Source: Treponemataceae bacterium
Lineage (GTDB): Bacteria > Spirochaetota > Spirochaetia > Treponematales > Treponemataceae
Direction: 5' to 3'
Length of the DNA stretch: 51,512 nucleotides
Assembly (NCBI GenBank): GCA_024680915.1
Contig: JAILBN010000052.1
Coordinates: 1 to 51,512, forward strand
Part shown: positions 28,609 to 50,317 of the stretch, piece by piece
Layout: every line of letters begins with the position of its first letter
How positions within the stretch are numbered: the stretch's first letter is position 1
Notes under the pieces: generated by a model
What the model was told of the DNA's origin: nothing
The model's database searches: none
The model's input: the letters and a program-made list of their open reading frames with translations, nothing else
Position numbers and translations under genes: made by a program

Positions 28609-30765
28609 CTAGTCTACTACCTCTATGATAGATTCATAGGCTTTCAAATTGTATTCTCTCTCTCCCTTCTCTGTTTTTATGGCACATTTTTGGGCAGAAG
28701 CGCTGTTGTTTATAACTGCTATGGTTCTTTTCTCCGGGAACCATGTGCATTCCACAGCAGTGTTGTCAGATATATATAATGCCTTGTCTTCTATTCCCGC
28801 AGCCCTAACTATTATGTTCAGCAGCAGGCGGGTGTTCTCAAGACTGTAAGCGAAATGTGAGAGGTACACACCCTTTCCCTTTCCATAGTCATGGATGGTC
28901 AGTGTAGGACTGTCCCCTTCCGCTGCTATAACAGTGGCTTTGCCGTCAGTGAGGAAGACCCCTTCTTCTTTCTTTATCGTTGCCTTCTCTGGAATAAGCC
29001 CGGCCTCAGCTGTCACCTTGAATTTATATTTCCCATGGCATACTTTAGCCCCTGTATCCTTGTCTACTCCCAGTATTCCTGCAGTTCTGAAGAAATCTCC
29101 ATGTCCTGTACAGGCTGAGGGTTCGTATATTCCTATGAAAGCTCCACCCTCATAAACCCATTTGTTTAGGGCCTCAGCCACTGAAGGATCCTGCCATTCA
29201 TCGCCGCCGCTCCATGCGGAACCGGCTTTTCCTGCGTTTATTACCACGTCATAGTTACTAAGCGCTCCCTTCCTTACGTCATCGAAGCTGATAAAATCAA
29301 CATCTAAGGGAAGTCCTGAAAGAGATTCATTCACATGGATAAGATCATGCATGTATGTCTCATGGAAGTGGCCCGACAATGTCCATGATCTGAGTTTTCC
29401 CCAGCAATGAAGCACTGCTATCCTGCAAGGAAGGACATAAGGTTTTCCTGCCTTATGCAGTTCTTTTATAATACGGAATTCATCCGCTATATACTCTATG
29501 TAGTCGATGAATTCAGGGAAAGCCTCGACCAGATGTAAATACCCTCCCAGTCCTATCCTTTCTATAGGAGCGCGGAGAAGGGCTCTGCGGGCATTAATCC
29601 AGTAGTCCCTGGCATCATCAGCGGGCTTACCTCCTTTCTTAAAGGTAGGCAGTCCGCCCAGCCCCACAGGAAAAAGATAGGGATGGAAGCGTAGCTCATG
29701 GACAGGAGCGGAAACTCCGTTACAAAGGCGGACCTCATATCCCGAGAAAATACATTTTATGATTCCATCGAAACCAATGGATTTGAAATGAGGACCGTAG
29801 GGTTCAAGTCCCACCCAGCTGTCATCATAAAAAACGTAAGCCTGTTTCCCGTATTTGTGGACAAGGTCTACCAGCTCTTTTCCGAATCCTGCCACATATT
29901 CCTGTGTGAATTCCATGTAATCCCTTTTATGGGCCGTAGGCGGCATGTGAGTCACCTGATATTTACCTTGGTTGACGAAATCTTCTGCACATAGCTGGTA
30001 GCCGTATTTTTTCTCAAAATCCTCCAGGGCTTTTTCTGATACTGTGAAATCATAGGAAGCCCAGTCTGTAAGAAGATTCCTGTTCAATTCGTCGCTTCCC
30101 CAAATCCATACAAAATTGTAGAAAAGAGAAGTGAAGCGGACCACTGTTGTGGCAGGATGTGTCTGACACCAGTTTTCAAGCCAGCCGTATAGGTATTCCC
30201 TGGCTTCTTTGTTCCTTGGATCCACTGGAATCAGATGCTGCTTGTGCCAGTTGTTGGTTACATGATTGTACATGGAAATCTCTTCCCATATGCGGTATGC
30301 GAGGAAGCTGACCGTATATTCGTGATAGGGAACCGCCTGGAAAAGTGTCACGCTTTCAGTGTCATTGTTATATTTCCAGGAAGTGTTGGGAAGGAGGGTC
30401 TCTGTAGTCCTGTCATAGACCTGCCAGTATTTTAGTGAAGAGATTCTGCTGTTGACCTCAAACTGTTCTGTGAAAAAGCTTTTCATAAGGGAGATCGTCA
30501 GCTGACTGTCATGAGCCGTTTCTGCAGGCGTCATCAAGAAGGTCTGCTGCCTGCAGTCGGGATGGCTTTTGAGCCATTCGTTATGTTCACGGATTATACA
30601 GATTGTTGAGTATATACCGTATCCGGCATCAAGAATTTCTTGGGATAATTGAGTTCCGTCACTGTCCCTTATAACATCGGCACCCCATTTTTCAGCCAAC
30701 CTCAGGGTCAGTTGTTCATAGCCGGATTCTCCTGGTAATGTGAAACTTCCTTTGATTTTGCTCAC
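28609..30765 (-). CDS. GH112 beta-galactoside phosphorylase (galactosyl-HexNAc or galactosyl-rhamnose phosphorylase)
   Basis: 718 residues from GTG 30765 (GAGGAAG just upstream; GTG 30777 is an alternative). The chain aligns by eye along its length with Bifidobacterium LnpA: SFTLPGESGYEQLTLRLAEK, ADVIRDSDGTQLS, HEYTVSFLAYRIWEEISMYN, VVRFTSLFYNF. VFYDDSWVGLEPY places an Asp near 316, matching the LnpA general acid Asp313. GH112 enzymes cleave Gal-beta-1,3-GlcNAc/GalNAc or Gal-beta-1,4-rhamnose with phosphate to Gal-1-P. The pectin setting favours the galactosyl-rhamnose activity, from rhamnogalacturonan I; specificity is inferred. No signal peptide: cytoplasmic. First gene of the importer operon. 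Confidence 0.88.
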   Translation of the reverse strand: MSKIKGSFTLPGESGYEQLTLRLAEKWGADVIRDSDGTQLSQEILDAGYGIYSTICIIREHNEWLKSHPDCRQQTFLMTPAETAHDSQLTISLMKSFFTEQFEVNSRISSLKYWQVYDRTTETLLPNTSWKYNNDTESVTLFQAVPYHEYTVSFLAYRIWEEISMYNHVTNNWHKQHLIPVDPRNKEAREYLYGWLENWCQTHPATTVVRFTSLFYNFVWIWGSDELNRNLLTDWASYDFTVSEKALEDFEKKYGYQLCAEDFVNQGKYQVTHMPPTAHKRDYMEFTQEYVAGFGKELVDLVHKYGKQAYVFYDDSWVGLEPYGPHFKSIGFDGIIKCIFSGYEVRLCNGVSAPVHELRFHPYLFPVGLGGLPTFKKGGKPADDARDYWINARRALLRAPIERIGLGGYLHLVEAFPEFIDYIEYIADEFRIIKELHKAGKPYVLPCRIAVLHCWGKLRSWTLSGHFHETYMHDLIHVNESLSGLPLDVDFISFDDVRKGALSNYDVVINAGKAGSAWSGGDEWQDPSVAEALNKWVYEGGAFIGIYEPSACTGHGDFFRTAGILGVDKDTGAKVCHGKYKFKVTAEAGLIPEKATIKKEEGVFLTDGKATVIAAEGDSPTLTIHDYGKGKGVYLSHFAYSLENTRLLLNIIVRAAGIEDKALYISDNTAVECTWFPEKRTIAVINNSASAQKCAIKTEKGEREYNLKAYESIIEVVD

Positions 30766-30817
30766 TTTCTTCCTCACTGTGGCTCATTATTCCGCTATGT
30801 TCACTTAAAAACAATTC

Positions 30818-33535: not shown

Positions 33536-35082
33536 AATGTAACTCCTTCTTTCATAATAGCGATCTCGCTGTATCCGTTTTTTTCGTTTTTCGTCCTATA
33601 TTCTCCGTCCGCAGTCTGAAGAATCAGGGATGCAAGATTATCCCTTGTCTCAAACTGTGTCTCTTGTAAAAGCATAACAGAAGAGTCGAAATCTATCCAG
33701 CTTTTTTTTCTTTGTGCCAGAGGATGGTTGGTAGCGATCTTTATGGTGGGGACAGGAGCCCCCAGTGGAGTTCCCCTTCCTGTGGTGAATAGGATAAGGT
33801 TTGCGCCTGCCGCCGTCATTGCAGTGGTGGAGACTATGTCGTTACCAGGACCTTCAAGCAAGTAAACCCCTCCTGGACTATTGTCAGGATCTCTGTTTAC
33901 CCGGTCTCCATAGGAGAGGACTCCGCATACAGGTGCTTTTCCACCCTTCTGTACACATCCCAGTGATTTATCCTCCAGGGTAGTTATTCCTCCGTCCTTG
34001 TTTCCTGGTGAGGGATTCTCGTAAACCACCTGCCCGTGGCGGGTGAAATAGTCTTTAAAGCCGTTTATAAGGTTCACGGTATCTTTGTAGACGCTCTCGT
34101 TTATACAGCGGTTCATAAGGAGCTGTTCTGCTCCGAACATTTCAGGGACTTCGGTGAGCATGACAGAACTTCCTTCTGCAGTGAAAAGGTCGCATATCTG
34201 TCCCACAAGGGCGTTTGCGGTTATTCCTGAAAGACCGTCCGAGCCTCCGCACTTCATGCCTATCACAAGACGGGATACAGGGACTTTCTCCCTTTTGAAG
34301 CTGTCTGCGTTCTTAGCCAGCTTCTCAAGTTTGTCCATCCCTACGCTTATTTCATCCTCCACTGACTGGGTCTCAAGGTAATCTATGTGACCGTAGAGGG
34401 TAGGGTCACCTGTGTTCCCGGCCACCAGCTCCTTGAAGGCTGAGACCCGGTTGTTCTCGCAGCCCAGACCCAGTACCAAGACACCGCCGGCATTGGGATG
34501 CTTTACAAGATCCGCAAGAATTGTCCTTGTCTTTTCATGGTCTTGTCCCATCTGGGAGCAGCCGTAGGGATGAATCCAGGCATGGAAGCCGTCTATCCCC
34601 GGATATTTTGCGGAAAGCTCTCTGTTGGCTCTTGCCGCCAGGAGCTCTGCCGTCTTGTTGACGCAGCCCACCGTGGGTACTATCCATATCTCGTTTCTTA
34701 TACCTATCCTTCCGCAGGGCCTTTTGTAGGCCTTTATCAGGGGCAGGGTACTTTCCTTCGTCTCTGCTTTTTTTCTCCATGCCTCAAGACTTTCTTTGTC
34801 AGGGCTGTAGGTGTATTTAGCGTTCTCAGAAAGCAGGGTTCTTACATTATGAACATGGACATGCTCTCCCCTCTTTATGGTACGGGAAGCCTTTCCTATG
34901 GGACAGCCGTATTTTATTACCGGACTCCCTTCTTCTATGTCTTTCAGGGCGAATTTATGACCGCCGGGTATATTGTCAGCAAGAGTCACTCCCAGTATGC
35001 TTTTTCCTGCTGGCAATGCTTCCAGGGCTACGGCCACGCTGTCATCCTCATGTATTCGGACTGCTTTTGCCGGCTCTTTCAT
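33532..35082 (-). CDS. uxaA: Altronate dehydratase
   Basis: 516 residues from ATG 35082, which overlaps the uxaB stop (ATGA). An N-terminal SAF domain (VRIHEDDSVAVALEALPAG ... EHVHVHNV, about 8-85) is followed by the UxaA catalytic region with YKRPCGRIGIRNEIWIVPTV, GCVNKTAE, HPYGCSQMGQDHEKT and LGLGCENN, conserved cysteines of the family. It dehydrates D-altronate to KDG in the cytoplasm. This is the full-length (fused) form, not the split form. Confidence 0.95.
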   Translation of the reverse strand: MKEPAKAVRIHEDDSVAVALEALPAGKSILGVTLADNIPGGHKFALKDIEEGSPVIKYGCPIGKASRTIKRGEHVHVHNVRTLLSENAKYTYSPDKESLEAWRKKAETKESTLPLIKAYKRPCGRIGIRNEIWIVPTVGCVNKTAELLAARANRELSAKYPGIDGFHAWIHPYGCSQMGQDHEKTRTILADLVKHPNAGGVLVLGLGCENNRVSAFKELVAGNTGDPTLYGHIDYLETQSVEDEISVGMDKLEKLAKNADSFKREKVPVSRLVIGMKCGGSDGLSGITANALVGQICDLFTAEGSSVMLTEVPEMFGAEQLLMNRCINESVYKDTVNLINGFKDYFTRHGQVVYENPSPGNKDGGITTLEDKSLGCVQKGGKAPVCGVLSYGDRVNRDPDNSPGGVYLLEGPGNDIVSTTAMTAAGANLILFTTGRGTPLGAPVPTIKIATNHPLAQRKKSWIDFDSSVMLLQETQFETRDNLASLILQTADGEYRTKNEKNGYSEIAIMKEGVTL

Positions 35083-36530
35083 TTTTCGCAACCTTTGCAA
35101 GCGACATCAGGAAGAGCTTTTTTCATGCCCTTGGACCATATGTCGGCAAGATGGGATGAGACTTTTTCTGCAAGACCTGCTCTTTTTGTTAGATCTTCTC
35201 CCCACCAGTCTGTCTGTGACAGGATATCTGCTGTGACAGCTTCTGCCGTGGCTTTGTCCAAAGAAGGATGGGCTTCGAAAAGCATCTCGAAGTGGGAGAG
35301 GACCGCCGGGTCTTCCTTGGCCTTCTCGTTTTTCCTGTAGAAGCTTATAAGAGCGGCAAGACTGAAGGAAAGGACTTCGGGAACCTTGCCGAACTTGTCC
35401 ATGTAGCCTGTGAGAGAGGGGAGATCCCTTGTCTTGAACTTTGATACTGAGTTCAGCGTTATTGACTCAAGAAGGTGCCTTATGTAGGGGTTGGCGAACC
35501 TTTCCAGTACATCCTTGGCGTACTGTGTCAGCATATCCTTGTCTCCGTCCATAGAGGGGATGATTTCCTCGAAAAGTCCTTTGTTTATAAGAGCCATGGT
35601 GTTCTTATCATGGATGCTCTCCTCCACGGTCTCAAGACCGTACTGGAAGGCTGCCGGTACGAACATGGTGTGGGTTCCGTTCAGAATACGGACCTTACGG
35701 GTCCGGTAGAAGCTCATGTCCTCAGTCCAGATCACGTTAAGACCTGCCTTCGCATGGGGGAATTCGTCGCTGAAGTTTTTTTTGCTCTCTATTACCCAAA
35801 GATGGAATATCTCGGCGGCATCAAGAAGATTATCCTTGTAATCCAGCTCCTTGCAAAGCTCCTCAGCTTCCTGCCTTGGGTAGCCAGGAACAATGCGGTC
35901 GACCAAGCTGTTGCAGAACCAGCAGTCATTCTCTACCCAGCTTATGAAAGCATCGCCCAGCTTCCATTCCTTTGCATGACGGAGCACATACTCATGAAGA
36001 TGGTCACCGTTCTTGTCTATAAGCTCACAGGGGATGAATACAAGTCCCTTTTCCTTGGAGCCTTTGAAGGTGGTGTATCTTCTGTAAAGGAACTGTGTGA
36101 CTTTTGCCGGGAATGATGCGGGTGGCTTGTCGTCGGCTTTGCAGCCGTCGAGCCAGGCTATACCGGCTTCCGTCGTGTTCGAGATTATGAATCGTAGATC
36201 CGGGTTGTCGGCGCATTTCATATATTCATCATATTCATGGTAGGGATTTATACAGCGGCTTACAGACGTGATAGTCCTCTTGTCGCAGACTGTCTTACCG
36301 TTCTGAACACCCCGGAGTACGGTTGTATAAAGTCCCTGCTGGGAATTAATCATTTCTGCCATGCCCTGCTCCAAGGGTTGTATAAGGACTGCGTTGCCGT
36401 TGAAATCTGTCTTCTCATTCACAATGTCCAACATCCAGTCTGCAAATGCACGCAGAAAATTACCTTCACCGAACTGAAGGATTTTTTCAGGACGAGATAC
36501 TGTCCTGCACGCTTCGTTTATTGATTTCAT
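35079..36530 (-). CDS. uxaB: Tagaturonate reductase (altronate oxidoreductase)
   Basis: 483 residues from ATG 36530, chosen because GGAGGAAAG precedes it. The mannitol-dehydrogenase-family NAD site ILQFGEGNFLRAFADWM is at the N-terminus, and VRILNGTHTMFVPAAF is the conserved catalytic region. It reduces D-tagaturonate to D-altronate with NADH. First gene of the uxaB-uxaA-uxaC operon, with its own promoter and a leader hairpin (GCGGA/TCCGC) before the start. Confidence 0.93.
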   Translation of the reverse strand: MKSINEACRTVSRPEKILQFGEGNFLRAFADWMLDIVNEKTDFNGNAVLIQPLEQGMAEMINSQQGLYTTVLRGVQNGKTVCDKRTITSVSRCINPYHEYDEYMKCADNPDLRFIISNTTEAGIAWLDGCKADDKPPASFPAKVTQFLYRRYTTFKGSKEKGLVFIPCELIDKNGDHLHEYVLRHAKEWKLGDAFISWVENDCWFCNSLVDRIVPGYPRQEAEELCKELDYKDNLLDAAEIFHLWVIESKKNFSDEFPHAKAGLNVIWTEDMSFYRTRKVRILNGTHTMFVPAAFQYGLETVEESIHDKNTMALINKGLFEEIIPSMDGDKDMLTQYAKDVLERFANPYIRHLLESITLNSVSKFKTRDLPSLTGYMDKFGKVPEVLSFSLAALISFYRKNEKAKEDPAVLSHFEMLFEAHPSLDKATAEAVTADILSQTDWWGEDLTKRAGLAEKVSSHLADIWSKGMKKALPDVACKGCEK

Positions 36531-36614
36531 GTCTCTTTCCTCCGGAATAAAAATGGATGGGAGCATTTGCGGAAGACCTCCGCGTTTTGTTCTTTCTGTT
36601 CCCTGCGTAGTTAT

Positions 36615-36674: not shown

Positions 36675-36739
36675 ACCGATTTTTTAACATTTTTTGTACA
36701 TTTCCGTTATCATATTATTTCAGCTGTAAAAAAATCGGT
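36675..36739. repeat. 11-bp inverted repeat between the divergent uxa and regulator promoters
   Basis: ACCGATTTTTT (36675-36685) and AAAAAATCGGT (36729-36739) are perfect inverted copies 43 bp apart. They lie between the uxaB promoter and the promoter of the hybrid regulator, where an operator pair for both would be expected. Confidence 0.5.
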
Positions 36740-36777
36740 ATTGTTTTTAGTGATTTCTTTTTGTACAATACCGTTAT
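36691..36777 (+). repeat. Duplicated promoter/start segment of the hybrid regulator gene
   Basis: 36691-36710 and 36758-36777 match at 18 of 20 positions: both contain TTTTTGTACA then CCGTTAT, 67 bp apart. In the right copy the final AT begins the ATG start codon; in the left copy it reads ATC. The similarity resumes a few bases on (GCTG, then TAAAAAAATCG-like). It looks like a decayed tandem duplication. Confidence 0.6.
36741..36768 (+). promoter_or_regulatory. Leaderless sigma-70 promoter of the hybrid regulator
   Basis: TTGTTT (36741-36746), spacer of 16-17 nt, TACAAT (about 36763-36769 region), ending about 6 nt before ATG 36776. No Shine-Dalgarno is present. Predicted transcription starts at the A of ATG. 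Confidence 0.55.
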
Positions 36778-39700
36778 GGCTGCTAAAAAAAATCGCATAG
36801 GCTTGCTTCTTGCCTCTATAGATACCGGCTCTGGTATAAATATGTGGAAACCTCTCGTCAGGGAAGCTTCCCATTCCAATGCTGCCTTCTTCATCTTTCC
36901 AGGCGGGCGGCTGAACGGACCCCATGACTCAGAATACCTTCGCAATTCTATATACAGTCTCGCCAACAAGCAGACTCTTGACGGCCTTATAAGCTGGGGG
37001 TCAACCATAGGCGGCTTTGTCTCCGTCCAGGAGCTCAACAGTTTTCATAATAAATTCTCGTCGATACCTTATGTTACTATCGCCCACAAAATGCCAGGGC
37101 ATTCCTGTGTTAAATTCGATGCCTACAATGGTATGTCGGAGCTGGTAAAGCATTTTCTTTCTGTTCACGGTGCCTCCAAAATAGCCTTTCTAAGAGGACC
37201 GGAGGCCCATTCCTCCTCCATGGAGCGCTACCGCGCTTTCTGTGATGTAATGGCTTCTGCCGGTCATGATATGCGTAAGTCTCCCCTTGTATCATCTCCC
37301 TTTCCCTGGTCAGAGGGGGAGAAAGCGATAATACAGCTTTTCAACGAGCGGGGACTCAGACCTGGCCGCGATTTTGAGGTACTTATCGGGGCCAGTGACA
37401 TGATGACTTTTTCCGCCGTCAGATATCTTCAGAAAGCCGGTTATAATGTTCCAGCTGATTATAAATGTGCCGGCTTCAATGATTCTGTTGAGAGCCGTAT
37501 ATCCGGCTCTGCCTTCTCAACGGTCAGGATGCCTTACAGTGAGCTGGCTCTTACTGCCTTTGATATGATAAAGAAAGAGCTGGTATCAAAAAAAATCAGT
37601 ACGGATGACAGGATCCTTCCGTCGGATATAGTTTTGAGGGAGTCCTGCGGCTGTTCCTCCTATGCTATACCCATAAGCTCCTTTTCTTGCGGCTCCAAGG
37701 AAGAGCTGCTTTGTGAGCTTTCAAAGCTTCTCCGCCTTGACGAGACCTCTTCGAATGCTGTTATAGAGCCCTTGGTGAATGTGCTTGAGGAGCACGATGA
37801 GGAACTGCTTTTTTCTCTTTTGATTAAGGCTTTGGAACGCTTCTTTATGCAGGATATGGATATACGGCTGCTTTTCAAAGCTTTCTCCCTGCTGAAGTCT
37901 GCATCCTTCCTTCCTGCGGGGCTCTTGACCAGCTACGAGAACCGTTTCCTTCTCACCATCTCTCAGGTTCAAAGCCGTGTGATGCAGGAGGTCAGCTTCA
38001 GGGAGCTGAGTATACAAAGAGAGCTGAATTCTCTTAAATGTGAGCTTCTTGAGGCACGCAGCAGACGCCATCTTATAGAGATTCTTGCCAAACACCTCCC
38101 TAAGCTTGAGATACATTCTGCCGCCCTTGTGTTCACCGAGAACGATTCTGTCTCCTATTTTGCCGGAGGCTTCTCCGAAGGGAAAATCATAGACGGAGGC
38201 TTCCTGTTCCCCGCCAGTCTGATTCTGCCGGATAAGGTGACCGGCTTTGATTCCGGTGTTTTCCTGGTACAGCCTCTTTTCATTGAGAAGCAGTTCATCG
38301 GCCACATAGTTTGCTCCGTTCCTTCCGATTCCTACAAGGGGTCTTTCTTTGAGGATCTGCGCTCCGCTATCAGCAGCGCTCTTTCCGGGATATTCCTTTT
38401 TGAGGAGACTGCCCTTGCCAAGCAGAAGGCTGAGAAGGCAGAGCAGGCAAAAACTGAGTTTTTCTCTAATGTGGGGGCAGACCTCTGCGAGCCCTTGATA
38501 TCTATAACCCATAAAATCGAGCAGATAGAGAAGCTGCTTTCAGAAGGCGGGGCGGATGATGATATACTTCAGGCACAGATGGTCTTCCTTAAGAACCGTA
38601 TCGGGGAGCAGCTGGAAAAAACGAATCTGATTCTGGAGCTTACCCTTTCTGAGACTGACGAGCTTCCCTTGGACAGGCAGATTTTCCATCCGGAATGTAT
38701 ATTCGGAGATGGGGAAGAATCTTATTCCCTCCCTCTGCTGTATGGAGATCCGGACAGATTCAAAGAAGCCTTGTCCATAATCGCCTCGGAATGGAATGTC
38801 CCTGTCTCCGGCATTTCTTTGGATTATATGGATGAGGGACTTTCTATAACTATAGAATGTGCAAAGCCTGTCCCTGAGGATACATGGCAGAAAAATGCCA
38901 TGATTCTAGCGGAACGTATATGTGTTCTTTTTGGCGCCATTATTAAGAAGGAAGAGAAGGGCTGTCATATCCTTTATCCCTGGCCGACTTTTTCCTGTCA
39001 TCCTGCGGAGTCTTCTTCTCCCCGTGTCTTTTGGAATGCCGATGGGGAGGAGCCCGAGGCTTGGGCGGAGATGTTCTCCCGCCGCAATGATCCCGAGTTC
39101 TCCCAGAGTGCGTTTATATGCAGGGTTTCTTTACCCCAAAAGGACTTGTATGCCATAAAGACCTTCAATGCGCTTTTTGAGAGTCATCTCAGTACCGGGG
39201 TAAAAAATCCGGTGGTTTTTGTAGGCACGGAATTCGTCCGCTTCTCCTCCTGGGTTTCGGCGGAGCAGTCTGTTCTTATAAGTGATGTCTCATCCTTCGG
39301 CTCTGCTGTATCCAAGCTTGCACCTTCTCTGGTGGTTCTGGACAGCCTTGATGTAGATGCGGTGGAGATGATCAGGAAGAATCCTGTCACGGAGCTTTGT
39401 CCGGTCTTTGTCCTTCCTGACCATATTATGGATAATTCCGAGGTTGCCCGTCTTATGAGGATTCCCCGCGTTATCCTTGTGAACAGGTTTATTGCCCAAA
39501 GCGAAGAATTCGCTGTCAGGGCCAGAGCTGTTATAGCCGGTGATGAGATTCTGCCTCCAGATACGGGGGCTCTTGTTAAAAAAGCTGTCTGCTATCTTAA
39601 TAAGAACGCAGGCTCCCAGATTTCCCGCTGGAAGCTTGCCGATTCAGTCCATGTCAGTGAAGACTACCTTACCCGTATCTTCCATAAAGAGACAGGGCTC

Positions 39701-39895
39701 TCTCCTTGGGAGTACCTTAACCGCTACAGAATATTGCTCGCCTCCCAGATGCTGCTCCACACAAATTCCACTGTCTATGATGTAGCCGAGAAATGCGGTT
39801 TTCAGGATCAGGCTTATTTTTGCCGGGTATTCAAGAAAATACATGGTGTACCACCTGGAAAATTCCGCTCTAACCCGGAAAAAACAGAGAAATAG
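36776..39895 (+). CDS. Hybrid regulator: LacI-type sensor, degenerate kinase/receiver modules, AraC DNA-binding domain
   Basis: 1039 residues from ATG 36776. Residues ~5-295 are a LacI/GalR-type periplasmic-binding sensor (IGLLLASIDTGSGINMW, LDGLISWGS, FNDSVESRISG, ending LRESCGCSS). A middle region (~300-550) is followed by a coiled coil and AKTEFFSNVGADLCEPL (~557), which mirrors a HisKA box but has no His. YGDPDRFKEALSIIASEW (~656) mirrors the kinase N-box without its Asn. APSLVVLDSLDVDAVEMI (~860) mirrors a receiver phospho-Asp region, with the late Lys replaced (VILVNRFIA). Residues ~945-1030 are an AraC double HTH (WKLADSVHVSEDYLTRIF, YDVAEKCGFQDQAYFCRVF). No membrane segment: cytoplasmic. 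Probably a sugar-responsive one-component regulator derived from a hybrid kinase. It is divergent from uxaB. Confidence 0.82.
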   Translation: MAAKKNRIGLLLASIDTGSGINMWKPLVREASHSNAAFFIFPGGRLNGPHDSEYLRNSIYSLANKQTLDGLISWGSTIGGFVSVQELNSFHNKFSSIPYVTIAHKMPGHSCVKFDAYNGMSELVKHFLSVHGASKIAFLRGPEAHSSSMERYRAFCDVMASAGHDMRKSPLVSSPFPWSEGEKAIIQLFNERGLRPGRDFEVLIGASDMMTFSAVRYLQKAGYNVPADYKCAGFNDSVESRISGSAFSTVRMPYSELALTAFDMIKKELVSKKISTDDRILPSDIVLRESCGCSSYAIPISSFSCGSKEELLCELSKLLRLDETSSNAVIEPLVNVLEEHDEELLFSLLIKALERFFMQDMDIRLLFKAFSLLKSASFLPAGLLTSYENRFLLTISQVQSRVMQEVSFRELSIQRELNSLKCELLEARSRRHLIEILAKHLPKLEIHSAALVFTENDSVSYFAGGFSEGKIIDGGFLFPASLILPDKVTGFDSGVFLVQPLFIEKQFIGHIVCSVPSDSYKGSFFEDLRSAISSALSGIFLFEETALAKQKAEKAEQAKTEFFSNVGADLCEPLISITHKIEQIEKLLSEGGADDDILQAQMVFLKNRIGEQLEKTNLILELTLSETDELPLDRQIFHPECIFGDGEESYSLPLLYGDPDRFKEALSIIASEWNVPVSGISLDYMDEGLSITIECAKPVPEDTWQKNAMILAERICVLFGAIIKKEEKGCHILYPWPTFSCHPAESSSPRVFWNADGEEPEAWAEMFSRRNDPEFSQSAFICRVSLPQKDLYAIKTFNALFESHLSTGVKNPVVFVGTEFVRFSSWVSAEQSVLISDVSSFGSAVSKLAPSLVVLDSLDVDAVEMIRKNPVTELCPVFVLPDHIMDNSEVARLMRIPRVILVNRFIAQSEEFAVRARAVIAGDEILPPDTGALVKKAVCYLNKNAGSQISRWKLADSVHVSEDYLTRIFHKETGLSPWEYLNRYRILLASQMLLHTNSTVYDVAEKCGFQDQAYFCRVFKKIHGVPPGKFRSNPEKTEK

Positions 39896-39949: not shown

Positions 39950-40411
39950 TTACTTCTTTTTGCTTTCTTCTTCTCCTGCCTTATCCTCGCTCTTAGGGGA
40001 CTCATGCTTTCTGGGATGGAAAACCCAGAATTTCTGAGAAAAAAAGTTGAGTATGAATATGAAGGAATCTACCAGAGGCTTGAGAATACTTGTGTTTATG
40101 CTCAGCGAATTGTAGAGGGTGTTTATCAGCAGCCATGAGAAAAGCATAAAGAATGTGGTGCTTATTACGAATTTTCCGAAGGAGTGGTGGTATTTGCTCT
40201 TGCCGCTTTTGAAAATCTGCCTGTGCAGGAAATAATTGCATAAAGAAGATATTATCCTTGCTGTTATAGTAGCCAGCAGGGTGGATAATGAAACTGACAA
40301 ATCATTCCATATGACTTTCGTGCATAGTATGAATACTCCGTAATCCACTGAATAGGAGATAAGACTTGATGCAGAATATGTAATGAACCTTAGAATATCC
40401 TTGAATGTCAA
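39950..40411 (-). CDS. GtrA-like small membrane protein
   Basis: 153 residues from TTG 40411 (GGAAGTGA upstream). Four hydrophobic segments and the pattern FITYSASSLISYSVDYGVF ... RIISSLCNYFLHRQIFKS ... FILNFFSQKFWVFHP are those of the GtrA/DPMS family. Such proteins help flip polyprenyl-linked sugars across the membrane or assist cell-surface glycosylation. The tail is highly charged (KSEDKAGEEESKKK). It stands alone here, converging on the hybrid regulator, so its partner enzyme is not visible. Confidence 0.85.
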   Translation of the reverse strand: MTFKDILRFITYSASSLISYSVDYGVFILCTKVIWNDLSVSLSTLLATITARIISSLCNYFLHRQIFKSGKSKYHHSFGKFVISTTFFMLFSWLLINTLYNSLSINTSILKPLVDSFIFILNFFSQKFWVFHPRKHESPKSEDKAGEEESKKK

Positions 40412-40456: not shown

Positions 40457-40513
40457 AGTCAATTTTAAAAATTATTTGACTCATTTGTCTATATGTCGGA
40501 AAAATCCAATAAT
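40457..40513 (+). promoter_or_regulatory. Possible promoter and inverted repeat of the second importer operon
   Basis: AGTCAA (40457-40462) and TTGACT (40476-40481) are inverted copies 13 bp apart. TTGTCT (40485-40490), 17-nt spacer, AATAAT (40508-40513) is a moderate sigma-70 match downstream of them, about 50 nt before the permease start. Confidence 0.35.
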
Positions 40514-40566
40514 CAATCGTTATTTTTTTTCGCCTATGAAGTAATCTGATATCGAGGTATGATACT

Positions 40567-41532
40567 ATGCTGAATGATAAAACACTTGCAAGGAAACGGT
40601 TGTGGAAAGAAATTGTCCGACATCGTTCTATTTATTTTATAATGCTTATCCCCCTTGTCTATTATCTAATCTTCAAATATGTTCCTATGTTCAACGCTCA
40701 GATAGCGTTTAAAGACTTCGCGGCAAAAAAAGGTGTCGTGGGAAGTCCTTGGGCTACAGTGGTGAATCCTGACGGAACTAAATCCTTAAGTCTGTTCAAG
40801 CATTTCCAGGCTTTCTTCGGTTCTTACTATTTCGGACAGCTTCTCCGTAATACTCTTATCTATAGTTTCGGAAAACTATTCATAAGTGTTCCTTTGGCTA
40901 TTCTTTTTGCTATCGTTTGTTACGAAAGCCGCCGCAAATACCTTCGCCCTTTAGTGCAGACTCTGGCTTATCTACCTCACTTCCTTTCGTGGGTTATAGT
41001 CTACGGTATCCTTCTCGCGCTTCTTGCTCCTGGAGACGGTGTGGTAAACGACATTATAAAACTCTGCGGAGGTCAGCCCATAAACTTCCTGACCGATACA
41101 AAAAGCTTCCCTTGGATAGTGCTTTTGTCGGACGCTTGGAAAGAGATGGGATGGAGTGCCATTATCTTTATAGCGGCCCTTATGGGTATAGATCCTTCTC
41201 TTTACGAGGCCGCCATGGTCGAGGGTGCCACTGCCTTCCAGCGTACCCGTTATATAACGCTTCCTTCTATAAAACCTGTTATAGCGACGGTAGTGTTGCT
41301 TCGTCTTGGAACCATCCTGGATGCAGGCTTCAACCAGATGTATATGCTTTATTCACCTTCTGTATATAGCGTCGCTGATATCATCGATACTTGGGTTTAC
41401 CGTCAGGGACTTCTGGAGTTCCAGTTCTCTCTTGCGACGGCTGTAGGTCTTTTCAAGGGTGTGATCGGATTCCTCCTTGTCATGTTCTCTAATGCTATGG
41501 TCAGGAAGCTTTCTGACACTTCAATAATGTAA
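40567..41532 (+). CDS. Carbohydrate ABC transporter permease (LplB type), second system
   Basis: 321 residues with six membrane segments. IYFIMLIPLVYYLIFKYVPM at the N-terminus and the EAA loop LYEAAMVEGATAFQRTRYIT mark the LplB-type subunit. It is first in permease-permease-binding protein order, followed by a GH105 gene. That suggests import of unsaturated rhamnogalacturonan oligosaccharides. GAGGT stands before the ATG. Confidence 0.93.
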   Translation: MLNDKTLARKRLWKEIVRHRSIYFIMLIPLVYYLIFKYVPMFNAQIAFKDFAAKKGVVGSPWATVVNPDGTKSLSLFKHFQAFFGSYYFGQLLRNTLIYSFGKLFISVPLAILFAIVCYESRRKYLRPLVQTLAYLPHFLSWVIVYGILLALLAPGDGVVNDIIKLCGGQPINFLTDTKSFPWIVLLSDAWKEMGWSAIIFIAALMGIDPSLYEAAMVEGATAFQRTRYITLPSIKPVIATVVLLRLGTILDAGFNQMYMLYSPSVYSVADIIDTWVYRQGLLEFQFSLATAVGLFKGVIGFLLVMFSNAMVRKLSDTSIM

Positions 41533-41556
41533 TGGAAGGCTTAAAAGGAGCTTAAA

Positions 41557-42459
41557 ATGCAAGAAAAAAACATATATAAATCGACTATAAAGGTTCCTGC
41601 ATCGGACAAGTTTTTCTACATCCTTCTTGATATCTTCCTGGTGTTCGTGCTTATTATCGTTCTTATTCCTATCTGGGCTACCATAACCCTTTCCTTCAGA
41701 CCCTCTACCTTTATAGGATCTAATCTTGAAGGTATGTTCCTTGCCCCTTGGAAGTGGTCTACAGCGGCGTATACCGCCCTTCTTGGAAACCGTGGCTTTA
41801 TACAGGCCTTCCTTAACAGTCTTAAGATTCTTGTCTTCGGTGTGGCTTCTGCCCTTTTTATGACAGTCCCCCTTGCCTATGGTCTTTCTGTCAAGACCCT
41901 TCCTGGACGTAAGTTTTTTAATACCTTCGTGCTTATACCCTATCTTTTCAGCGTAGGTATGATTCCTACCTACTTCGTAGTAAAGAATGTAGGTCTTATA
42001 GATCATATCGCCGCGGTATTTATTCCAGGTGCTGTAGGAACATATAACTGTATCATAATGAGAGGCTTCTTCGAGGGAATCCCGGATGAGCTCAAGGAGT
42101 CTGCCCGTATCGACGGTGCTCCTGAATGGATGGTCCTTATCCGTATAATCCTGCCTCTTTCCAAGCCAATCCTCATGACAATCGGCTTGTATTACGGAGT
42201 CAGCTTCTGGAATGACTTCTTCCATGCGATGCTTTACTTGAACAAGAGTGACCTTCAGCCTCTGCCTATTCTGCTTCGTAACATACTTCTGGGTGCCAGC
42301 ATGAACGAGAACCTGGATGTCAATGCCTTCGGAGAGACTCCTGTTTCTGCTATCAAGGCAGCCTCGGTCTTCATGTCGGCTATTCCTATGATCCTTGCTT
42401 ATCCTTTCATACAGAAATACTTTACGAAGGGAACTCTGCTGGGAAGTGTCAAAGGTTAA
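41557..42459 (+). CDS. Carbohydrate ABC transporter permease (LplC type), second system
   Basis: 300 residues, six membrane segments, EAA loop LKESARIDGAPEWMVLIRII, and the usual end YPFIQKYFTKGTLLGSVKG. Shine-Dalgarno AAAAGGAG. It pairs with the preceding permease (24 nt upstream) and the following binding protein. Like the first system, no ATPase gene accompanies it. Confidence 0.93.
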   Translation: MQEKNIYKSTIKVPASDKFFYILLDIFLVFVLIIVLIPIWATITLSFRPSTFIGSNLEGMFLAPWKWSTAAYTALLGNRGFIQAFLNSLKILVFGVASALFMTVPLAYGLSVKTLPGRKFFNTFVLIPYLFSVGMIPTYFVVKNVGLIDHIAAVFIPGAVGTYNCIIMRGFFEGIPDELKESARIDGAPEWMVLIRIILPLSKPILMTIGLYYGVSFWNDFFHAMLYLNKSDLQPLPILLRNILLGASMNENLDVNAFGETPVSAIKAASVFMSAIPMILAYPFIQKYFTKGTLLGSVKG

Positions 42460-42465
42460 ATACCT

Positions 42466-42565
42466 GCTGGGGCAATTCTTTACCCAGCTGGATATTTTGA
42501 ATAAATGGTGTCAGGGGAAGATCCTCTGACTGGAGATTTGTTTCAAATCCCGGTTTTATGACCGG
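42466..42565 (+). promoter_or_regulatory. Four tandem hairpins between permease and binding-protein genes
   Basis: 42466-42471 with 42483-42488 (GCTGGG/CCCAGC); 42510-42517 with 42523-42530 (GTCAGGGG/CCTCTGAC, one G-U); 42535-42540 with 42544-42549 (GATTTG/CAAATC); 42550-42554 with 42561-42565 (CCGGT/ACCGG). They fill the spacer just before the Shine-Dalgarno. They probably set binding-protein mRNA above permease mRNA by processing and 5' protection. Confidence 0.6.
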
Positions 42566-42586
42566 AATAAATAACAGGAGGACAAA

Positions 42587-44170
42587 ATGAAACAAATGGT
42601 AAAGAAACTGGTAGCTCTGCTGCTCGTTTTCGCTCTTCTTATCCCTGTATTCGCAGGCGGAAGAAAAGACACAACAGGTACAGCCGCTGTATCCAACGCG
42701 CCTGTAGACATCGAGATATGGTACGGAGCAGCTGCTTCTGAAGCAGGACCGCCACCTGCAGATTGGGAAGTTTATAAGATTGTGAAAGATAAGTTCAATA
42801 TAAATCTTACCCTTACTGCTCTTCCTTCTTCACAGGATGACCAGAACGTAAAAATCAACGCCGCTGGTGCTGCAGATGCTCTTCCTGACCTTTTCATGGT
42901 AGAGCGTGATGTATGGCTCAGACTTGTTCAGCAGGGCCTGGTTGCAGAAGTTGATGATATGTATCCTATGATGCCTGTCCGCTCCAAGACACACTACACA
43001 GAGGAAAGCGTTGCTAACACAACTGTAGACGGTGTTTCTTATGGTCTTGCAGATCCAGGTTCACTTACAAAGAACGAGGGTCTTCTTATCCGCAAGGACT
43101 GGCTTGATAAGCTTGGTCTTGCAGTTCCTAAGACTCTGGATGATCTTTACAACTGTATGTATGCATTCACATACAATGATCCTGATGGAAACGGACGCAA
43201 CGACACCTACGGTTTCGGAGCATATCTTGAGGTTTCTTCAGTAAAAGAAGGTCTCGGAAGCCGTTTCGAGCCTATCATGGGTGCCTTCGGTGTATGCGGT
43301 ACATGGGACCTTACAAAAGCTAACGCTGGTCTTAACCTTTTCAAACCGGAATATTTCGATGCCATCACATTCGTAAAGAAAATGGTGGATAACGGTGTAA
43401 TCGATCCTAACTGGACAGCTTATAAGAAAGATGATTTCCGTGCTGCCTGGAAGCAGGGAAAATTCGGTATCATGCGTGAGCAGAACGCCGCTTTCGCAGC
43501 TCAGGCAAACTACAAGCCCTTCGATGACAACTTCCCAGAAGCTTCTTGGATTGTTCTTGATGCTCCTGTAGGACCTGCCGGAAAGTCTTCTATCGGTGTA
43601 TATGCAAACGCATTCCGTATCTATGCTGTTTCTCAGACTGCAGCAGATGCTGGAAAGAAAGCTAAGATCGCTGAATTGCTCGAATGGATGGCAACTGACG
43701 GTTACTATCTCCTCGGATGGGGACAGGAAGGTGTGAACTTCGTATTCAGTGAGGAAGGAGTTCCTACAGAAAAAGGTATTCCTGATCCTTCAAAGGGCTT
43801 CTCAAAGTCAGAGATGATTCCTCTTACACAGCTTAAGAACCTGGTATTCTACAATTCAGAAGTAGAGATTGCTGCCCGCTATCCTGCTTACATAACAGCA
43901 ACTTCTCAGAAACGCATGAGTGCTGGTGATGTTCTTGCAGAGATGGAGACAAAGCAGTGGACTCCTAACAATGGAAACGGCACAATGCCTTCTCCTAATG
44001 CTGACCTTAAACGTTTCTATGAGCAGGGTGTACTGGAATTCCTTAATGGAACACGTAACCTTACTAAAGCTGACTGGGATGCTTGGGTTGCTGAGTTCAA
44101 GAACATTGGTGGTCAGGCTTGGAATGACAATGGTGTAGCATATGCCAAGGAGCATTCTCTCCTTTACTAG
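42587..44170 (+). CDS. ABC transporter extracellular solute-binding protein (family 1), second system
   Basis: 527 residues. The signal peptide KKLVALLLVFALLIPVFAG ends in GGRKD, again without a lipobox Cys and matching the first binding protein at the same place. The mature chain has VDIEIWYGAAASEAG, LFMVERDVWLRLVQQG and LLIRKDWLDKLGLAVPKTL, and a calcium-loop-like segment DPDGNGRNDTYGFG. It should bind pectin-derived oligosaccharides in the periplasm. AGGAGG precedes the ATG. Base use is A/C-ending and regular, consistent with high expression. Confidence 0.9.
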   Translation: MKQMVKKLVALLLVFALLIPVFAGGRKDTTGTAAVSNAPVDIEIWYGAAASEAGPPPADWEVYKIVKDKFNINLTLTALPSSQDDQNVKINAAGAADALPDLFMVERDVWLRLVQQGLVAEVDDMYPMMPVRSKTHYTEESVANTTVDGVSYGLADPGSLTKNEGLLIRKDWLDKLGLAVPKTLDDLYNCMYAFTYNDPDGNGRNDTYGFGAYLEVSSVKEGLGSRFEPIMGAFGVCGTWDLTKANAGLNLFKPEYFDAITFVKKMVDNGVIDPNWTAYKKDDFRAAWKQGKFGIMREQNAAFAAQANYKPFDDNFPEASWIVLDAPVGPAGKSSIGVYANAFRIYAVSQTAADAGKKAKIAELLEWMATDGYYLLGWGQEGVNFVFSEEGVPTEKGIPDPSKGFSKSEMIPLTQLKNLVFYNSEVEIAARYPAYITATSQKRMSAGDVLAEMETKQWTPNNGNGTMPSPNADLKRFYEQGVLEFLNGTRNLTKADWDAWVAEFKNIGGQAWNDNGVAYAKEHSLLY

Positions 44171-44180
44171 TGAATAAATG

Positions 44181-44233
44181 CTGGAAGCTTCTGCTTCCAG
44201 TACCCCTCAGTGCCGTCCTTCAAGAGACGGCAC
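44181..44233 (+). promoter_or_regulatory. Two tandem hairpins after the second binding-protein gene
   Basis: CTGGAAGC (44181-44188) pairs with GCTTCCAG (44193-44200), and GTGCCGTC (44210-44217) pairs with GACGGCAC (44226-44233). Both are perfect 8-bp stems. They precede the terminator at 44242-44277. Confidence 0.65.
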
Positions 44234-44241
44234 ATCACAGG

Positions 44242-44277
44242 AAAACGGCAGTGCGTGTTTTCGTGCTGCCGTTTTTT
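44242..44277 (+). terminator. Terminator 12 nt upstream of the GH105 start
   Basis: AAAACGGCAG (44242-44251) pairs with CTGCCGTTTT (44266-44275), and T continues to 44277. It would end importer transcripts, with read-through feeding GH105, whose Shine-Dalgarno (CGGAG) follows at once. Confidence 0.75.
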
Positions 44278-44289
44278 ACGGAGTTTATA

Positions 44290-45429
44290 ATGAATGGTCT
44301 ATATAATAATGACTTGCTCTCAGTAAAAATGTCGCGTTCTGTTATAAATAGATATAAACCTGCCCAGGTAAAATGGCATTATGAGCATGGACTGGTGTTG
44401 CAAAGTATTTATGCTGTCGGCAGAAAATATGATATCATAGAGTTTCCTGCATGGGTTAAAATCATGTACGACACCAAAATAAATATAGATGGCACGATTA
44501 ATACATATAAGGATGAAGAATATAATCTTGACCAGATAAACCCGGGTAAAAATCTTTTCGATTTATATAATGATACTGGCGAAAAAAAATATTTAAAAGC
44601 AATTGAGATTTTGAAGAATCAGCTTGATAACCAGCCTCGCACACAGAGTGGTGGTTTCTGGCATAAAAAAATATATCCATGGCAGATGTGGCTGGATGGC
44701 CTTTATATGCAGGGGCCCTTTTATGCCCGCTATATAAGGGACCTCAGTCCTGAAAAGGATTATGAGGATCTTGTTCATCAGTTTGAGCTTGTTTATGAGC
44801 ATACTCGTAACAAGGAATCTGGTCTGCTTTATCATGCCTGGGATGAATCCTGCAAGCAGCTTTGGGCCGACCCGGTTACCGGTTGCTCTCCTCATTTCTG
44901 GGGTAGGGCGATGGGGTGGTTCTCCCTTGCCCTTACGGATGTTTTGTCCATAATCCCTGATGAAGAAGCTTTTGCTTCCTATAGAAAACGGCTTATTGAC
45001 ATCGCTGTCTCTCTGGTGGAACCCATTCTTTCGGTTCAGGATGATAAAAGCGGTCTTTGGTATCAGGTTCTCGATATGCCCATGCGCTCGAAGAATTATC
45101 TTGAGACCTCATGTTCTGCTATGTTCACCTGTTTCCTTTATAGGATTGTCCGGAATAATTGGCTTCCTTCCGGGGCGGAAGGGAAGCTGACTCGCTCAAG
45201 CCTTCTCGCTGCGGCTGATAAAGGCTGGAGAGGCCTTTGCAGCAGAGTTTCCCAGGATGCGGATGGGAATCTTCACCTTTCAGGTATATGCAGTGTCGCA
45301 GGTCTTGGTGGAAAACCCTACAGGGACGGCTCCTATGAATATTATGTGAAAGAAGCTGTTGTTTCTGATGATTTTAAGGGTGTAGGTCCTTTCATATTGG
45401 CTGCTCTTGAGTCGGAAATCATCCAGTAA
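44290..45429 (+). CDS. Unsaturated rhamnogalacturonyl hydrolase (GH105, YteR/RhiN-like)
   Basis: 379 residues from ATG 44290, chosen because CGGAG is 7 nt upstream; a longer frame runs back through the terminator and is not credible. The (alpha/alpha)6 GH105 fold shows PWQMWLDGLYMQGPFYARY with the expected catalytic Asp (~135), YHAWDESCKQLWADP, FWGRAMGWFSLALTDVL and YLETSCSAMFTCFL. It removes the unsaturated uronic acid left by pectate or rhamnogalacturonan lyases. There is no signal peptide, so it acts on imported oligomers. The released uronate would enter the KduI branch. Confidence 0.9.
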   Translation: MNGLYNNDLLSVKMSRSVINRYKPAQVKWHYEHGLVLQSIYAVGRKYDIIEFPAWVKIMYDTKINIDGTINTYKDEEYNLDQINPGKNLFDLYNDTGEKKYLKAIEILKNQLDNQPRTQSGGFWHKKIYPWQMWLDGLYMQGPFYARYIRDLSPEKDYEDLVHQFELVYEHTRNKESGLLYHAWDESCKQLWADPVTGCSPHFWGRAMGWFSLALTDVLSIIPDEEAFASYRKRLIDIAVSLVEPILSVQDDKSGLWYQVLDMPMRSKNYLETSCSAMFTCFLYRIVRNNWLPSGAEGKLTRSSLLAAADKGWRGLCSRVSQDADGNLHLSGICSVAGLGGKPYRDGSYEYYVKEAVVSDDFKGVGPFILAALESEIIQ

Positions 45430-48226: not shown

Positions 48227-50317
48227 ATGTCTATAAAATCTAAAGATACGAACGGCAAAAAAGGCATGGGTATGGCCATAAGAATGGCTCTGCTTTTTTC
48301 TCTTGTTGTTATTACGCTTGTTGTAGCAATGAATTATGCCATAGTTGATCAAGTAAGATCTTCCATTACGGCTATATATGAAAAGAATACGTTGAATCTT
48401 GCGGAAGGTTCTTCTGAGCATATCGCGGAAGCACTCCGTATATATATTGAAAATGTTAAATCATACGCGAATTCAGAGATTGTCAAAACAGGCGATGATG
48501 ATGCGGTAATAGCTTGGATGCAGGCTAACCCTCAGTTTCAGCATAAAGATTATGATTATGAGTTCTTTGCCGGACGTGAGGCTATTACTCATCGTGTAAC
48601 TGGTGAAATTGGTGCCGACATTTCGGATCGGGCATATTACAGTTCCATCATAAAAGGTGGAAAAAATGAGTATGTTGGTGACCCTATCGTTTCAAGAACA
48701 TCTGGTAAGTTCGTAGTTCCTGTCGCTGTTGCGGCTAAAGATGCTGATGGTAAGGCTTATGGTATTTTCAATGCGATGGTAAACATCGACAAAATTAATG
48801 AAATAGTTAAACAATCAACAATGGGTACAGAAGGTTACGCCATCCTTTTGGACAGTAACGGAATAATTCTTTCGCATCCGAATCCACAACTTGTAAAGAC
48901 TGAGTTCGAGGGGTTCCGAGGAATTAAAGCAAATATGGCTAACCAGAAAAGTGCCGTTTCTATTCAGAACACTCCGGTAGGTCAGAATCTTATTGCTGTA
49001 TCAAAAGTTCCAGATACACCAGGTTGGTTCTTCATTATGGCAATCACAGGTGAGGAGCTCGCTCGTGTTCCAAACAACGTTAGAACCTTCATTACGATTG
49101 TAGGTATTGTAGTTGGGCTTGTTCTTATGTTGGTTGCGTACATTCTGCTTTCAAGGACTGTTAAGCTTGTCAAGATTGTAACGAGTACAGTTGGTGATAT
49201 TACTGCTGGAGATGCAGACCTTACAAGGCGCATAGACATAACACGTAGGGATGAGATAGGACATCTTATAAATTCATTCAACGGCTTCGTTAAGAAACTG
49301 CAGAATATTATATCGTCAATAAAAGGCTCCAAAAAAATGTTGGAGAATGCCGATGGTGACCTTCAGCACAGTATAGAAGATACGGCCTCTGCTATTACGG
49401 AGATTCTTGCAAATATTGATGGCGTAAGCAAACAGGTTAATAATCAATCTTCTTCTGTTTCCGAAACAGCCGGTGCTGTTACTCAGATTTCGCAGAACAT
49501 TGATTCTCTTGAGAAAATGATTGAGAATCAGTCTGCCAGTGTTACAGAAGCATCTGCTGCTGTTGAAGAGATGATGGGTAACATCAGTTCTGTAAATACA
49601 TCTGTTGAGAAAATGGCTTCTGAGTTCTCTGCACTTGAAAAAGACACACAACTTGGTATTGAGAAGCAGAATTCAGTTAAGGAACGCATCGATGAAATCG
49701 CTGAACAATCAGCAATGCTTATCGAAGCTAACACTGCCATCGAGAATATCGCATCGCAGACGAATATGCTTGCTATGAACGCTGCTATCGAGGCTGCTCA
49801 TGCAGGTGATGCCGGAAAGGGATTCTCTGTTGTTGCTGATGAAATCCGTAAGCTTTCCGAAACTTCTACGGAACAGTCACACACTATCGGTGACGAGCTT
49901 AGAAAGATTGTTCAGTCTATCGAGGTTATGGTTAATTCTTCCAATGAATCGGAGGAAGCTTTCTCTGCTGTTGGTACTCGTATTAAGAATACCGATGTTC
50001 TTGTCCGTCAGATAAAGAGTGCTATGGAAGAGCAGAACGAAGGTTCTAAACAGATTTTTGAGGCGCTCCAGTCGCTTAATGATAATACCGCGGAAGTTCG
50101 CAGTGCTGCGGTTGAAATGTCCGAAGGCAACAAGTCTATCCTTGGTGAAGTCCGAAAGCTTCAGGATGCTACGGATGTAATCAAGGGAAGTATGACAGAA
50201 ATGTCAGATGGTGCAAAGGAGATTAATCAGTGCGGATCTGTTCTGGCTGATATTTCACGTAAAGTTAATGATTCTGTGCGTCAGATAGGATCAGAAATCG
50301 ATCTGTTCAAAGTCTGA
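48227..50317 (+). CDS. Methyl-accepting chemotaxis protein with dCache sensor
   Basis: 696 residues. The first membrane segment (~17-36) and second (~284-308, [20 protein letters not shown]) enclose a periplasmic double-Cache domain ([58 protein letters not shown]). HAMP ([20 protein letters not shown]) and a full MCP signalling domain with tip [20 protein letters not shown] (~511) follow. It senses a small periplasmic ligand and controls CheA. RAYY resembles the Arg/aromatic pocket of amino-acid Cache sensors but is not a clear match. It ends LFKV like the other MCP. Confidence 0.93.

Follow-up and report, generated by a model that had tools for sequence, protein, structure and literature searches.

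The hybrid two-component systems (HTCS) of Bacteroides carry on one chain, and in this order, a sensor, a histidine kinase, a receiver and an AraC domain, and control glycan utilisation by means of a membrane-embedded sensor and an intact His/Asp relay. Their receivers present an S/CHIP motif in the α3-β4 loop (PMC11253607). The ChiS protein of Vibrio cholerae is a membrane-bound hybrid sensor kinase which binds DNA and activates a glycan operon directly; dephospho-EIIA-Glc represses it through interaction, and our comparison with its noncanonical signalling is based on that article (PMC10208484). The XylR protein of E. coli (about 392 aa) joins a LacI-type ligand domain to an AraC domain and has no kinase/receiver core. 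Finally, pseudo-histidine kinases keep the histidine kinase fold without functional catalytic residues, as in DivL (PMC4211667) and in a ChrS variant of C. glutamicum, and pseudo-receivers, defined as receivers in which at least one of five conserved residues is missing, are able to bind ligands or proteins (PMC12632262). In all of them the fold outlives the catalytic residues, and the DivL- and ChrS-type examples that we compared cooperate with partners in a phosphorelay. Both kinds of protein are common, though little is settled about how they signal.

We studied a regulator gene of a gut spirochaete in a window (the whole stretch of DNA analysed, 51,512 nucleotides) which is one contig of a 3.1-Mb MAG; among named genomes, its closest relatives are MAGs of Treponemataceae and other spirochaetes. 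An alternative in-frame start exists (TTG 36761), but the invariance of M1 in 27 aligned relatives favours the ATG. Pfam recognized only the two ends of the protein, with Peripla_BP_3 at residues 128-291 (8e-15) and Peripla_BP_1 at residues 9-227 (1e-6) on one side, HTH_18 at residues 954-1032 (1.6e-23) on the other, and no domain over the roughly 630 residues between 300 and 930, even at an E-value of 10. The features of the gene are as follows:

36776..39895, + strand: regulator gene, 1039 aa, from ATG 36776 to the stop at 39895
36788..37663, + strand: LacI/GalR-type periplasmic-binding-protein-like sensor, ending in ESCGC, residues 5-296 (Pfam; 27/27 relatives)
37664..38341, + strand: helical segment, long signalling helix and GAF-like alpha/beta domain, residues 297-522 (AF2 secondary structure)
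38342..38665, + strand: pseudo-DHp, long helix 523-589 and helix 595-624, Ala568 in place of the phospho-His (alignment; AF2 helices)
38666..38995, + strand: pseudo-CA (HATPase-like), N, G1 and G2 boxes and ATP lid lost, residues 631-740 (alignment; VIA-align to ZraS)
39002..39199, + strand: putative remnant of a further receiver-like segment, longer in relatives, residues 743-808 (alignment)
39200..39541, + strand: pseudo-receiver, acidic pair, Thr and Lys lost, residues 809-922 (VIA-align to receivers; residue table)
39581..39877, + strand: AraC-type DNA-binding domain, residues 936-1034 (Pfam HTH_18; most conserved part)

The maximal 19-residue mean hydropathy is 1.32 and there is no membrane helix; by hydropathy, the regulator is soluble and cytoplasmic. 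The ESCGC motif which closes the LacI domain with two Cys (residues 289-293, nucleotides 37640-37654) is near-invariant in the members of the family with a dead relay and in those with an intact one.

The order of the parts is that of the Bacteroides HTCS, of which the initial annotation had made the regulator a cousin. The analogy holds, but membership does not: the sensor is a cytoplasmic LacI-type domain, the relay is left with only one of the catalytic residues scored, and the place of S/CHIP is taken by TELCP in the query and by RSVP in the orthologs with an intact relay, so the regulator is a counterpart of the HTCS by analogy only. With ChiS it shares the principle of a kinase-derived protein acting directly on DNA, and differs from it in not being bound to the membrane. 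With XylR, whose structures 4fe4 and 4fe7 were among the matches, it shares both terminal domains, and control by an intracellular sugar is expected, whereas some 630 residues of dead relay separate its sensor from its output. The regulator may work like XylR, with a large core retained by descent, without belonging to the XylR family. In contrast to DivL and ChrS, both its kinase and its receiver are dead, and they are fused to sensor and output; our literature search, which covered mainly papers outside subscription, found no description of a dead kinase and a dead receiver placed in one chain between a sensor and an output.

To identify the middle of the protein, we compared by HHalign the profile of the 27 nearest relatives with that of orthologs having intact Pfam domains, mismatched pairings serving as controls. 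The kinase parts matched with an E-value of 1e-19, the receiver parts with 5e-18 and both together with 8e-38, against 0.2-1 for the controls; residues 297-522 were likewise collinear with the intact orthologs (7e-34), and by Foldseek the only structure matches of this region were weak phytochrome hits. The AF2 model of residues 383-935 was of moderate quality (pLDDT 71.5), and that of the full-length protein too weak for interdomain geometry (pLDDT 62, pTM 0.28). Searching with the predicted middle, Foldseek gave HK853/WalK-type kinases as top matches (E 1e-5); residues 627-737 superpose on the CA domain of ZraS (VIA-align Z 11.3) and residues 810-922 on receivers (Z ~12, rmsd 2.5-2.8 over ~110 residues). 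An HMM of the dead kinase and receiver part scored the six intact orthologs at 62-96 bits and the best ordinary histidine kinase of related genomes at 44 bits; scoring the orthologs above all sampled ordinary kinases argues for vertical descent. Chance similarity is ruled out by these four approaches, and a domain swap, by which a dead family would have gained a live kinase, is disfavoured since the cores that the dead one resembles most are those of the intact orthologs themselves. The middle is thus a decayed histidine kinase core (pseudo-DHp and pseudo-CA) followed by a receiver, as profiles, ortholog series and fold comparison agree, and the alignments show, as far as sequences can, descent from a complete hybrid two-component protein of the order LacI sensor, GAF-like domain, DHp, CA, receiver and AraC. 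Most of what the initial annotation had read from the letters was confirmed in this way, i.e., a soluble protein with a LacI-type sensor, HisKA-, HATPase- and receiver-like segments and an AraC output; the domain prediction that it proposed for residues 300-930 came out blank with Pfam, and it was profile comparison that revealed the kinase and receiver similarity.

The regulator is not a one-off, but belongs to a family widespread in Spirochaetota: tblastn with the middle detected relatives in 63 of the 197 related genomes searched, and a profile survey found the family spread across the phylum. We scored 14 catalytic positions, nine in the kinase and five in the receiver, in 68 Spirochaetota members. 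Six of them (L059, L064 and L071-L074) retain 14/14, with SHELRTP or THELRAP, the N-box Asn, DTGxGI, GLGL and a full receiver including its D/T/K residues, and are predicted from these residues to carry out phosphotransfer; the 62 others retain at most 3/14, and no half-dead form was found among the 68, i.e., nothing between 3/14 and 14/14. Pfam followed the same division, finding HisKA, HATPase_c and Response_reg in the six intact members, HisKA alone in 7 of 12 intermediate members, and no kinase or receiver domain in the 27 members of the window's own group. The query keeps none of the nine kinase residues and one of the five receiver residues. It has lost the phospho-His (Ala568), both N-box Asn, the G1 Asp/Gly, the G2 glycines, and the acidic pair, Thr and Lys of the receiver, where a lone Asp persists at the phospho-site and the loop after it is gone. 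It therefore corresponds both to a pseudo-histidine kinase and, with four of five residues lost and the receiver fold preserved, to a pseudo-receiver. At the phospho-site, 13 of the 27 nearest relatives have Glu, a residue able to mimic phospho-Asp in some receivers, which might here fix an active-like state; 4 have Asp, and the rest Asn, Gly, Lys, Pro or Arg.

Across the family, kinase and receiver residues were lost together, as expected if either is useless without the other, and this joint, all-or-none pattern points to a real functional switch rather than to slow erosion. In a tree computed without the relay columns the intact rows group together, but the dead L061 nests among them; two independent losses, which this nesting suggests, are not claimed, since an AU test does not reject a single loss (p 0.106). 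The losses of phospho-His, N-box Asn and receiver Lys named in the initial annotation were all three found, along with the further ones, and every close relative shares them. Orthologs with an intact relay nevertheless exist (6/68); as they stand beside the same operon, they show the ancestry of the regulator and do not refute the reading of its relay as dead.

This operon is the second element conserved in the family. As the initial annotation had it, the regulator lies between the uxa genes and an importer:

35079..36566, - strand: uxaB, tagaturonate reductase, divergent neighbour (NCBIfam), followed by a uxaA-like dehydratase and uxaC, to 32135
40567..45429, + strand: predicted target operon, with two ABC permeases, a solute-binding protein and a GH88 unsaturated uronyl hydrolase (annotation; synteny)

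The solute-binding protein owes its name to position and homology. Between regulator and importer lies a small GtrA-like membrane protein (39950-40411, - strand). In most relatives whose flanking DNA was read the importer adjoins the regulator, and uxaB and GH88 are often present as well. Among intact members, it is the immediate neighbour of L146 (G129) and of L147 (G137), and for L148 it lies on the opposite strand at a distance of about 3 kb. The permeases of 14 related genomes that lack the regulator are no more than distant paralogs (at most 43% identity). Sharing of this neighbourhood, mostly with GH88 and uxa, by dead and intact forms indicates that they are orthologs, and full-length collinearity places the regulator in one Spirochaetota LacI-HK-REC-AraC group with them.

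The third conserved element is a candidate operator. De novo EM search in upstream regions gave the motif AtgTCGgtaTTGTACAAAAA, with a log-likelihood of 322 against 72-81 for shuffled input. We retrained it on the dead-relay loci of the window's group only and tested it on held-out loci: it was present in 7/7 importer promoters, including three with an intact kinase, each score being reached in at most 0.2% of shuffles. Two of the intact-kinase sites are weak (10-11 bits, a level also met by 3/26 unrelated permease promoters), and the third, with 16.4 bits, exceeds all controls. In 20 importer promoters the motif keeps a constant spacing to a GnAT box and to a TAnnnT -10, the latter being 90-95% conserved at offsets 50, 51 and 55. 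Two half-boxes one helical turn apart beside a weak -35 are the usual geometry of AraC-type activators. The sites of the window are:

36691..36709, - strand: candidate operator site 2, 67 bp nearer uxaB, same orientation as site 1 (motif)
36758..36776, - strand: candidate operator site 1, pointing to uxaB and overlapping the start region of the regulator (motif)
40494..40512, + strand: candidate operator of the importer promoter (motif)
40542..40547, + strand: -10-like TAATCT at fixed spacing from the operator (TAnnnT conservation)

Site 1 is stronger than site 2 and both have the same placement in the closest relatives. The pattern occurs four times in the window against 0.59 expected; the fourth match (48845-48863, - strand, three mismatches) is weaker, lies inside a dCache/HAMP chemoreceptor frame (48227-50317) and is probably due to chance. 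Genome-wide, the search gave 4 hits against 6 for the reversed control, with only the two promoters of the window above noise, so the regulon looks local. Position and conservation suggest that the regulator binds these sites, and the location of site 1 over its own start, in the window as in the closest relatives, suggests autocontrol.

Since only one of the scored catalytic residues is left while the kinase and receiver parts persist, together with the target genes and the DNA site, the regulator probably works without phosphorylation. We consider it likely, with some reserve, that a former cytoplasmic hybrid two-component system has become a phosphorylation-independent activator of the uptake of galacturonate or pectin oligosaccharides. 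Whether the whole family made the same switch in place, from two-component system to phosphate-free allosteric switch, keeping operon and operator, losing both halves of the relay together and transmitting the signal through the dead parts, appears to us evenly balanced. At the sequence level the proposal is supported by descent, catalytic loss, fold retention, selection, and conservation of the target operon and of the candidate operator. In the mechanism that we propose, the LacI domain would bind an intracellular sugar derived from pectin, be it galacturonate, a breakdown product or an unsaturated oligouronide; as judged from the neighbourhood only, a pectin breakdown product is the most likely ligand. 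The conformational change would pass through the signalling helix and a constitutive pseudo-DHp dimer to the pseudo-receiver, and would shift the two AraC domains on their site, TCGG-(N)5-TnCAA, which precedes the weak -35. The importer/GH88 operon and uxaB would then be activated, and the regulator would probably control itself through the site at its own start. The relay may plausibly be no more than a mechanical linker, and a nucleotide or another ligand may also sit in the GAF-like or pseudo-CA domain.

Selection on the core helps to weigh the alternatives. Pairwise dN/dS, obtained by the simple NG86 estimator and only where dS could be estimated, was 0.07-0.32 for the dead kinase and receiver parts and 0.23-0.43 for the intact orthologs (for the query versus L046, dS was saturated in most regions and the ratio uninformative). 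By this estimator the values show purifying selection on the dead parts, whose folds are retained, and a decaying gene is ruled out by ratios well below 1 and by open frames in many genomes, including single-contig ones. The same data bear on the strongest rival, a one-component protein of the XylR kind in which LacI sensor and AraC domain suffice and the dead core is a passive dimerisation scaffold without signalling role. XylR itself does without such a core, and here conservation is highest in the sensor and the DNA-binding domain, the dN of the core being about three times that of the sensor. However, the core is constrained to a degree comparable to intact kinases, conservation peaks at the former H-box helix (KTEFFANVGSDLCDPL) and at the receiver-to-AraC linker ILPPxTGALVKKA, and the family surveyed gave no core-less member; we hold this scenario to be rather unlikely. 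Use of the dead core as an additional sensor, with a second ligand bound by its GAF-like/pseudo-CA part, or as a docking site on which a partner protein acts, in the manner reported for ChiS and DivL, has precedents in ChiS (PMC10208484) and in pseudo-receivers (PMC12632262) and could call on the GAF-like domain that AF2 predicts, but no conserved ligand pocket was identified in the core, and it seems to us distinctly improbable. Phosphorylation of the residual receiver Asp by another kinase would need only the residue that the query keeps, but the acidic pair, Thr, Lys and post-Asp loop are lost and only 4/27 nearest relatives have this Asp, which leaves it next to no credit.

Under the preferred reading, a phosphorylation-independent activator, the family has a particular value: present-day orthologs that have kept the full relay and others that have lost it seem to perform one task at one promoter, the intact ones having the same domain order and, where examined, the same importer neighbourhood and candidate operator. 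Comparison or swaps of their cores would test the need for a His-Asp relay when sensor and DNA-binding domain share a chain, and would also throw light on signal transmission through a dead kinase core. Two further observations concern the surroundings of the gene. Beside the uxa cluster, a 1,3-beta-galactosyl-N-acetylhexosamine phosphorylase of the lacto-N-biose phosphorylase family (28609-30777, - strand) with its own ABC importer points to the use of mucin or host glycans next to that of pectin. Finally, the same genome encodes a LacI-type sensor fused to a HisKA_3/HATPase_c kinase (L004:274-2427, - strand, 718 aa) and two LacI-type sensors fused to GGDEF diguanylate cyclase domains (L007:472-2427 and L008:442-2400, - strand, 652 and 653 aa), which indicates that cytoplasmic LacI-type sensors feed several signalling outputs in this genome.
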